NCBI GenBank assembly: GCA_947450355.1
Contig: CANFVB010000008.1
Span: 1 to 33,878 of the forward strand
Direction: 5' to 3'
From: Bacteroidota bacterium
Lineage (GTDB): Bacteria; Bacteroidota; Bacteroidia; Flavobacteriales; Flavobacteriaceae
DNA length: 33,878 bases
Shown one piece after another: positions 6,642 through 33,878 of this stretch (the stretch's first letter is position 1; each line of letters opens with the position of its first letter). The notes under the pieces are model-generated. The model saw only the letters and a program-made list of their open reading frames with translations, made no database searches and was not told the DNA's origin. Position numbers and translations under genes: made by a program.

Positions 6642-6830
6642 AATTATAAACTCAGAATTATTAATTATACCTTTTGACAATCTAATTATAGTCTTTGATC
6701 CTATAATTATAGCCTCTGAGTATCTAATTATACTCTTTGAACTTATAATTATACTCTTTTAGTATAAAATTATACTCTTTGAACTTATAATTATAGCCCC
6801 GTAGTATCTAATTATACTCTTTGAGTATAA
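6642..6830. repeat. 21-nt-period tandem array of nine AATTATA-centred palindromic units
   Basis: AATTATA occurs at 6642, 6663, 6684, 6705, 6726, 6747, 6768, 6789, 6810, always 21 nt apart; consensus AATTATACTCTTTGAGTATAA; last unit holds the perfect hairpin TTATACTC-TTT-GAGTATAA. Confidence 0.95.
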
Positions 6831-6862
6831 AATAACAAGCTTAAAGGGTAAAAACTCTAATT

Positions 6863-32256: not shown

Positions 32257-32376
32257 TTAAAAACTGGCCTGTTTCAAGGAAGAGCGATACGCAATTTGGT
32301 TTGAAATTTCCTCCAAATCTGTTTTCCAAGCTTTTATGACTTTAGGATAATTACGTCTAAAATTGCTAGAAAAAGA
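32257..32376 (-). pseudogene. Possible short transposase relic (IS256/Mutator-like), very tentative
   Basis: Minus-strand LSFSSNFRRNYPKVIKAWKTDLEEISNQIAYRSSLKQASF* loosely resembles the IS256 segment (K/R)YP..(I/V)K.W...W(E/D)(E/D)L; no catalytic motif present. Confidence 0.2.
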
Positions 32377-32446
32377 AAGGTTTATTATTCTAAAAGAAAT
32401 GACAGCAATTACCTTAAAAATAAGATGTTAGGACGTTACTTATTGT

Positions 32447-32634
32447 TTGCCAAGACAAAGGAAAGGCTTCGTCCTGACGAAGAAACTAATTTACCGCGGT
32501 AACTTATATAAACTACCGCGGTAACTCACTCAATTTACCGCGGTAACTTACTTAATTTACCGCGGTAACTTGATTCATTTACCGCGGTAAAATATATGTA
32601 TCGTCCTGACAAAGCGATAAACTATCCCTGAGAA
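32447..32634. repeat. 22-nt-period palindromic array: five TTACCGCGGTAA cores flanked in register by divergent cores
   Basis: ACCGCGGT at 32493, 32515, 32537, 32559, 32581 (exactly 22 apart), spacers of 10 nt. In-register flanking 12-mers: TTGCCAAGACAA (32447), TCGTCCTGACGA (32469), TCGTCCTGACAA (32601), TATCCCTGAGAA (32623). Confidence 0.93.
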
Positions 32635-32657: not shown

Positions 32658-33030
32658 CTAATCCCTAACATACTCTTGAGGAGAAACTCCCGTTATCGAT
32701 TTGAAGCTTTTAAAGAAGGAACTATAGGATGTAAATCCAGCCACAGAAGCCAATGACTCCATCGTATCTTTTTTTAGATAACCTTCCTCTATTAGTAGAA
32801 TGGTTTTTTGAATGCGTATTATTTTCCTAAAGTGAGAGAACTTTATTTTTGAATGATATTTAAAAATATACAACACATGACTTTTTGGAATATTTAGTTT
32901 GTTTATTAAATCGCTTGTTTAAAAATTGGTGTTTAGAAACAGATTGATTTTAACGCTTGGTTTTTCTATGTCAAGAATATAAGTTTTAGTATTGTTTACA
33001 CGTTTAAGAAAGTACCTTTTATTAATATTA
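32658..33030 (-). pseudogene. AraC-family transcriptional regulator C-terminal fragment, in-frame nonsense codon plus IS truncation
   Basis: Minus-strand reading ...YILDIEKPSVKINLFLNTNF*TSDLINKLNIPKSHVLYIFKYHSKIKFSHFRKIIRIQ...MESLASVAGFTSYSSFFKSFKSITGVSPQEYVRD*. The TAA at 32919-32921 is in frame with both flanking ORFs (33119 - 32876 = 243, a multiple of 3). Upstream is IS982-like sequence. Confidence 0.85.
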
Positions 33031-33878
33031 ACCCGTTGGGTGTAATTATTTAAAGTGAAAAAAATAGAATAAATATTGGTCAAGACACTGAAATTCAGTA
33101 TCTTGAAGTCGCTAAACAAACCAATATTTATGTCAAATATAGTGAAAAATTATTTAAGAGTTTTAGAAGTTATAAGTTCTTTGAATTGTGAATTGGAATA
33201 TAAATCTGGCGTTGGCAGAAGCCAAAAAATGTCTGATTTAGAAGTAGTTGCACTGAGTTTAACGGCTGAATTTATGTCCATTGATAGTGAAAACTCATTG
33301 TTTAAATTGATTGATGTTAGTCAAATTCCAAATTTAATTGAGCGAAGTCAATTTAATAAAAGACGAAGAAAATTATTTTTGTTTTTAGAAGAAGTAAGAA
33401 CAAAATTAGCATCACGTTTTTTAGAATTTGAAGATTATTTCATCGTAGATAGTATGCCGTTGGAGATTTGTAAATTTGCTCGTCACAGGAGAATTAAAAT
33501 CTGCAAAAATGATTTTGAAACTGCTCCTTCAAAAGGGTTTTGTGCTTCTCAAAACAATTGGTTCTACGGATACAAATTACACGGAGTCTGTTCAATAAAT
33601 GGAATTTTCCACTCATTAGATATTACAAAAGCAGAAGTTCACGATGTTCATTTTTTGAAGAATATAAAACAACAAATGTCTGATTGTGTGTTACTTGGTG
33701 ATAGAGGTTATTTATCTCAAAGCATTCAATTAGATTTGTTTCAAACAGTAAATGTCAAATTAGAAACACCAAAAAGAATAAATCAAAAAGACTATAAGCC
33801 ACAACCTTATATCTTCAGAAAATCAAGAAAAAGAATTGAAACATTATTTTCACAATTGTGTGACCAATTCAAAATAAG
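33031..33878 (+). mobile_element. IS982-family insertion sequence, left end (element continues beyond the window)
   Basis: Transposase at 33130; ACCCGTTGGGTGTAATTATTTAAAGTG at 33031 is the likely terminal inverted repeat. The partner end is outside the window, so the boundary is an estimate. Confidence 0.75.
33130..33878 (+). CDS. IS982-family transposase (3' end outside window)
   Basis: Manual translation MSNIVKNYLRVLEVISSLNCELEYKSGVGRSQKMSDLEVVALSLTAEFMSIDSENSLF...FEDYFIVDSMPLEICKFARHRRIKICK...KGFCASQNNWFYGYKLHGVCSINGIFHSLDITKAEVHDVHFLKNIK...VLLGDRGYLSQSIQLDLFQ: open to the window edge, hence absent from the ORF track. Confidence 0.93.
   Translation, partial: MSNIVKNYLRVLEVISSLNCELEYKSGVGRSQKMSDLEVVALSLTAEFMSIDSENSLFKLIDVSQIPNLIERSQFNKRRRKLFLFLEEVRTKLASRFLEFEDYFIVDSMPLEICKFARHRRIKICKNDFETAPSKGFCASQNNWFYGYKLHGVCSINGIFHSLDITKAEVHDVHFLKNIKQQMSDCVLLGDRGYLSQSIQLDLFQTVNVKLETPKRINQKDYKPQPYIFRKSRKRIETLFSQLCDQFKI

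Follow-up and report, generated by a model that had tools for sequence, protein, structure and literature searches.

A 22-bp palindromic array at the promoter of a decayed HU-HIG gene, and related candidate operator arrays in one genus of Flavobacteriaceae

The palindromic array found in the analysed DNA (33,878 nucleotides of contig CANFVB010000008.1, assembly GCA_947450355.1; the whole stretch is called the window below) belongs to the promoter of a decayed HU-HIG gene on the minus strand, which was transcribed away from the array. Judging from sequence features that recur in related genomes, it is one example of a general type of phase-locked operator array of a fast-diversifying HU-like family, functional in type. 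Gene identity, pitch, phase, symmetry, covariation and the co-occurrence of array and gene were observed directly. We consider it rather probable that these arrays are phased operators of the HU-HIG gene and candidate sites for binding by HU-HIG dimers themselves.

The original prediction described five 12-bp palindromic cores, one of them with a T->C change, at an exact 22-bp pitch, and all of its letters and coordinates proved to be exact (Table 1). The four spacers of the array are CTTATATAAA, CTCACTCAAT, CTTACTTAAT and CTTGATTCAT. A search for TTACCGCGGTAA with up to two mismatches gave 5 matches versus 0.55 expected, a number reached in none of 100 shuffles. The array was also detected by TRF, and a scan for triplets of palindromic units, with any pitch from 14 to 40 bp allowed, picked out nothing else in the window; the same scan of 1.22 Mb of other Bacteroidota DNA found no array. 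Across the 2.33-Mb assembly, the exact core is confined to two arrays (in the window and on contig C67) and one solitary site. For known structured RNAs, no Rfam match was obtained in the window at gathering thresholds. A CRISPR array was considered and rejected, given the 12-bp cores, the 10-bp spacers that share an AT-rich pattern and the lack of a cas gene in the window. A second periodic array is present at 6662-6853 of the window, with a pitch of ~21 bp and TAATTATACTCTTTGAGTATA-like, AT-rich, partially palindromic units; its flanking genes are of the outer-membrane type on one side and code for an ABC permease on the other, and it has no linked HU-HIG gene in the window.

Table 1. Features at and around the array (positions in the window; centres are relative to the transcription start of the decayed HU-HIG gene)
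Feature	Position	Strand	Remarks
Decayed HU-HIG gene	32266..32415	-	start ATG->AAG at 32415-32413; recognisable YPKVIKAWKTDLEEISNQIAYRSSLKQA at 32349-32266
Edge unit TTGCCAAGACAA (minus strand TTGTCTTGGCAA)	32447..32458	.	overlaps the end of the -7 box and the transcription start
HU-HIG promoter -7 box, TTCCTTTG	32456..32463	-	consensus TAnnTTTG, A lost; 33 bp from core 1 centre
Edge unit TCGTCCTGACGA (minus strand TCGTCAGGACGA)	32469..32480	.	centre ~-23, over the -33 region
Core unit 1, TTACCGCGGTAA	32491..32502	.	centre ~-45
Core unit 2, variant CTACCGCGGTAA (T->C)	32513..32524	.	~-67; variant shared with the C67 paralogue, in the same position
Core unit 3	32535..32546	.	~-89
Core unit 4	32557..32568	.	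~-111
Core unit 5	32579..32590	.	~-133
Distal edge unit TCGTCCTGACAA	32601..32612	.	
Distal edge unit TATCCCTGAGAA, weak	32623..32634	.	
AraC-family membrane regulator remnant (C-terminal HTH)	32658..33030	-	contig C67 carries an intact paralogue
Insertion sequence, probably IS982 family	33031..33878	+	end ACCCGTTGGGTG; DDE transposase from 33076 onward, running off the window

The HU-HIG copy in the window is a decayed fragment that was matched by tblastn and HMMER only, with its dead start codon and its damaged -7 box both at exactly the expected spacing. On the other side of the array, the insertion sequence interrupts the AraC-family remnant; the sister genome G014 lacks it at the corresponding site (L116). 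The AraC-family protein was rejected as the binder of the array: its gene is oriented with its end towards the array, and the window locus holds only a dead copy. The host genome is Flavobacterium-like: a neighbouring 672-aa protein has its closest matches mainly in Flavobacterium. One MAG contig titled Bifidobacterium breve (L010), probably mislabelled or contaminated, encodes a protein 69% identical to a Flavobacterium-like query.

An intact HU-HIG gene was identified directly downstream of such arrays in five genomes (G002, G010, G026, G095 and G205), beginning 59-81 bp from the last core centre. In these intact relatives within the genus, 3-5 palindromes with a 22-bp pitch stand directly upstream of the -7 box TAnnTTTG. 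Arrays of the TACCGCGGTA type occur in 8 of 400 genomes of the genus, and the array is thus not limited to a single strain; HU-HIG genes of the same clade (clade A) occur in 16 of the 400, and array and gene are found together in seven of the eight array genomes (P=3e-10, relatedness ignored). In a set of 300 genomes of the family, clade-A HU-HIG was detected in none outside the genus, and both clades, A and B, hardly occur beyond it. The other species reached via the named loci had no HU-HIG, and phage and plasmid records contained distant HU-HIG relatives only (28-40% identity).

HU genes too distant to have the CCGCGG core are preceded by 22-bp arrays with other cores (TGACCGCGGTCA, TCACCnnGGTGA, TGACTGCAGTCA and GGCCGCGGCC), and the arrays of clade-B HU-HIG genes consist of AAAGATGTACATCTTT-type or CCCTAGGG-type units. 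Because palindromy alone is too weak a signal for degenerate arrays, we computed the autocorrelation over 260 bp upstream of each gene. The best lag was 22 or 44 for all 18 clade-A genes and 8/9 clade-B genes, and a lag-22 identity of at least 0.64 was observed for 22/27 clade A and B genes versus 2/146 control promoters; none of the eight remaining HU-HIG genes reached this value. Among clade-B genes gathered after the first result, which are new data from related genes, 15/18 also had a best lag of 22 or 44. Upstream of the HU-HIG genes at L222 and L231-L234, composite arrays combine CCCTAGGG units and a GCTGTACAGC unit in one 22-bp register, which may hint at cross-regulation between HU-HIG paralogues.

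The -7 box TAnnTTTG of Flavobacterium psychrophilum is located at -12 to -5 (PMC9723704). We measured the phase of the arrays in 36 loci that have an exact TAnnTTTG box. The distance from array centre to -7 box was 11 bp modulo 22 in 26 of these loci and 11±1 in 35, related loci being treated as independent in the P values for this phase. The single exception (L129, 14 modulo 22) has asymmetric direct repeats as units, which were centred differently by the script. It follows from this phase that unit centres fall at about -45, -67, -89 and so on; in some loci a further centre is found at about -23, where a core replaces the promoter unit. Both the position and the phase of the arrays relative to the promoter are therefore fixed, as in operator arrays.

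The 22-bp register had also been said to continue outward into divergent edge units, which were interpreted as an age gradient. The register does extend outward: GTCNNGAC-like units were found in register in 28/38 cases at 17 related loci (binomial P ~1e-29, with related loci treated as independent). The age gradient, in contrast, is not supported. Rather than aged copies of the core, the edge units form a second conserved class with the motif GTCnnGAC, because units of this type recur at the same places in many other genomes, namely over the -33 region, at the transcription start and distal to the cores. Nor has the centre been homogenised by conversion or slippage among the units of the array, as cores are 97% identical and spacers only 57%. 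Moreover, the odd unit CTACCGCGGTAA and its adjacent spacer are common to the window array and the paralogous C67 array, and the units therefore descend individually. Unlike conversion among units of one array, conversion between the window and C67 loci may have occurred. The original interpretation was right in taking the GC-rich cores as good operator candidates and in extending the register outward.

In clade-A arrays, core identity was 0.81 versus 0.56 for spacers. The two half-sites were complementary at position ±4 in 66/69 pairs (at most 58 in shuffles) and at position ±5 in 52/69 pairs (at most 38 in shuffles), and half-site covariation was observed in clade B at ±1, ±2 and ±5. The dyad is thus preserved by compensating changes, as is expected of operators. 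The core centre varies with the HU clade (CCGCGG, GTAC or CTAG), and the half-sites change jointly while the spacers drift. Within one genome, clade-A and clade-B arrays have a core identity of just 0.08-0.44, whereas clade-A arrays of close HU relatives from different genomes reach 0.92, which implies that the core letters follow the HU lineage and not the genome. Such a pattern would be expected if dimers bound the sites and each array diverged along with the gene linked to it, although it does not name the binder, since array and gene are inherited together.

The product of the intact gene is an HU-HIG protein of 126-127 aa (PF18291, E=3e-26), and intact relatives score 84-92 bits with the PF18291 profile versus a cut-off of 26.2. 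Homology to HU/IHF is supported by Pfam, NCBIfam, a PDB sequence match, an AlphaFold model and Foldseek. The model has a mean pLDDT of 91.8 and matches 4fmr and many HU/IHF chains in Foldseek; phmmer against 5eka gave E=3e-4. The gene beside the arrays is thus a member of HU-HIG (PF18291 / TIGR01201 HU_rel), with Bacteroides vulgatus BVU_2165 (4fmr) as the nearest solved fold. The canonical RNPxTG arm with its intercalating proline is absent from these proteins, and in place of a long beta-arm, strands 79-87 and 101-110 of the predicted model are joined by a short loop; a proline is present in the loop between the arm strands in many clade-A and few clade-B proteins. Between HU proteins with GTAC-type and CTAG-type arrays, only three columns differ consistently, none of them in the arm, and no set of residues follows the change from GTAC to CTAG cores.

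In our view the arrays are most likely bound by the HU-HIG dimer, because HU-HIG is the sole gene consistently beside the arrays and a two-fold symmetric dimer would suit the dyad. For cooperativity and the sign of regulation, we infer the following model. A register-locked operator system would serve a 127-aa HU-HIG gene, with the window array as its upstream half, and each 22-bp unit, corresponding to two helical turns, would accept one HU-HIG homodimer on the dyad of its palindrome. With a two-turn pitch the dimers would be aligned on one face of the DNA, and cooperative loading might proceed from the strong upstream units to the weaker ones that cover the start site and the -33 region. HU-HIG dimers would in this way control their own promoter, most likely by repression, and make it self-limiting. 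Recognition and protein would diverge jointly within each lineage, and arrays could stay useful after the death of their own gene if HU-HIG produced from other loci of the genome bound them in trans. The missing canonical arm, the short loop in the model, the lack of consistent arm differences between GTAC-type and CTAG-type proteins, the arrays with mixed cores and the orphan arrays without HU argue against binding by HU-HIG.

The array loci are variable places of the genome, many of them with large surface-protein genes nearby. At L106, L204, L205 and L206, a clade-A HU-HIG gene with its array is the neighbour of a type II Cas9 gene that has its own conserved tracrRNA-like element (AAGGCTATATGCCG...GGGACTTTTT), and in three of these four loci a rmuC-like gene comes next; one insertion hotspot is used by both the CRISPR cassette and HU. 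In G026, one array-HU unit is followed by an integron-integrase/XerA-like recombinase (L114:5845-7314), and in a second copy (L113:7014-7268) the HU start has been fused to the integrase C-terminus by a deletion. The spot after the alanine dehydrogenase gene harbours a clade-A HU in G010 and a clade-B HU in G000 and G014, each with a different large surface protein (L107, L129 and L190), and appears to be an exchange hotspot.

It might be argued that the operator arrays of HU-HIG promoters are bound by a separate regulator encoded elsewhere, so that HU-HIG is the target gene only. Palindromes whose half-sites covary do look like those read by common HTH repressors that act as dimers, sequence preference is usually slight in HU proteins, the canonical arm is missing here, and an AraC-family gene adjoins several clade-A arrays (L089 and L107); linked descent alone would also match array and HU lineages under another binder. 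On the other hand, no gene other than HU-HIG consistently adjoins the arrays, and the AraC-family gene reads towards the array, which is therefore not located at its promoter. A separate regulator would also be expected to use one core per genome, whereas each genome has unrelated cores that follow the HU clade. We consider such a regulator unlikely, albeit a serious competitor of binding by HU-HIG. A role in recombination or mobility, as integrase sites or part of a mobile unit with HU-HIG as an accessory factor, appears quite improbable. The recombinase that follows HU in L114 and in L209, the gene fusion in L113, and the variable neighbourhoods with surface-protein genes, cas9 and tracrRNA would fit it, but an integrase adjoins just 2-3 of 18 clade-A loci, the exact register to the -7 box fits transcription, and a non-exhaustive search found no target duplication or element ends. 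Finally, a functionless minisatellite grown by slippage would explain that the unit number varies between 3 and 5 and that related arrays differ by one unit, as L115 does from the window. As the main account it is refuted, with hardly any probability left to it, by cores that are kept while spacers drift, by the compensating half-site changes, by the fixed phase to the -7 box and by the lack of comparable arrays in the 1.22-Mb background.

The assumption that HU-HIG dimers could read arrays in trans concerns arrays without a live gene, of which the window array is one. The five units, the odd second one among them, recur as another array on contig C67 of the same genome, and both arrays are adjoined on the minus strand by the remains of one gene. 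Because the two loci share the lost start codon and the damaged -7 box, the gene was probably dead before the copies diverged. Their identity is 60/60 in cores, 36/40 in spacers, 111/155 (72%) in the dead gene and 36/64 in the far flank, with the cores better conserved than the dead gene (P=9e-8) and than the spacers (P=0.02). The cores remained intact while the dead gene drifted; the array has thus outlasted its own gene, and either a role in trans or exchange or conversion between the copies is likely. In the G014 counterpart of the window locus, both intact neighbour genes end towards the array, and thus the window array is at no intact gene's promoter. Gene conversion between the loci, in place of selection for a role in trans, would bear on this puzzle of orphan arrays only; we give it somewhat less than even odds. 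It is favoured by spacers that are also well kept relative to the flanks (56-80% identity), and disfavoured by the excess of conservation of cores over spacers and by the comparison of the window with its G014 counterpart, a small sample with two spacer changes and no core change.

Orphan arrays without HU at L112 (G002), L108 (G095) and L115 (G014) likewise suggest a role in trans or sequence exchange, but they are few. At L197:1248-1325, an orphan GTAC-type 22-bp array lies 3' of an HU-like gene whose own upstream stretch has no array, and upstream of a secreted-protein gene. The window's own genome (84% complete) shows no intact clade-A HU-HIG gene; its contig C33 (L126:6965-7228) carries the 3' half of one in frame, which is 81-86% identical to intact relatives and has neither the N-terminal half nor an array.

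The prevailing view of HU-fold proteins is that they bend DNA largely without sequence specificity, and for the large HU-HIG expansion in Bacteroidota we know of no established DNA target. The arrays suggest that a supposedly unspecific protein family may have evolved specific and fast-changing DNA targets. They offer candidate HU-HIG targets close to the genes themselves, in naturally occurring specificity variants (CCGCGG, TGACCGCGGTCA, GTAC and CTAG types) that lend themselves to simple binding swaps, and the phase lock to the -7 box suits a reporter assay in Flavobacterium. Where an array has outlived its gene, one may ask what reads it. As a tentative and somewhat doubtful generalization, the HU-HIG family might comprise sequence-specific binders with lineage-diversified palindromic targets, each gene being wired to its own phased array and the arrays of dead genes being read in trans, so that several mutually private HU-DNA codes would exist in one genome, linked to surface-protein, CRISPR and integrase loci.

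A study by Burroughs and co-workers from 2017 is said to have described HU-HIG as expanded in Bacteroidetes and to have proposed that it recognises invading elements. The genes studied here differ from HU-HIG as known in the operator arrays beside them, none of which are described in the literature searched, a search outside which the main HU-HIG paper lay. Helically phased repeats beside a gene for a small DNA-binding protein are known from autoregulatory operator arrays of dimeric repressors and from plasmid iterons and partition centromeres (~22-bp, two-turn pitch), and in these systems stronger and weaker sites share one register. Our arrays resemble them in both respects, but the adjoining protein has an HU/IHF fold and not HTH or RHH, the units are perfect dyads with lineage-specific letters in exact phase to the Bacteroidota -7 box, and the arrays are chromosomal and multi-copy. 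The IHF and HU sites in REP/BIME elements also combine an HU-family protein with repeated palindromic DNA; in contrast to these, the arrays described here are promoter-locked, short-cored and gene-linked, and they are not scattered, the exact core being confined in the genome to two arrays and one solitary site.
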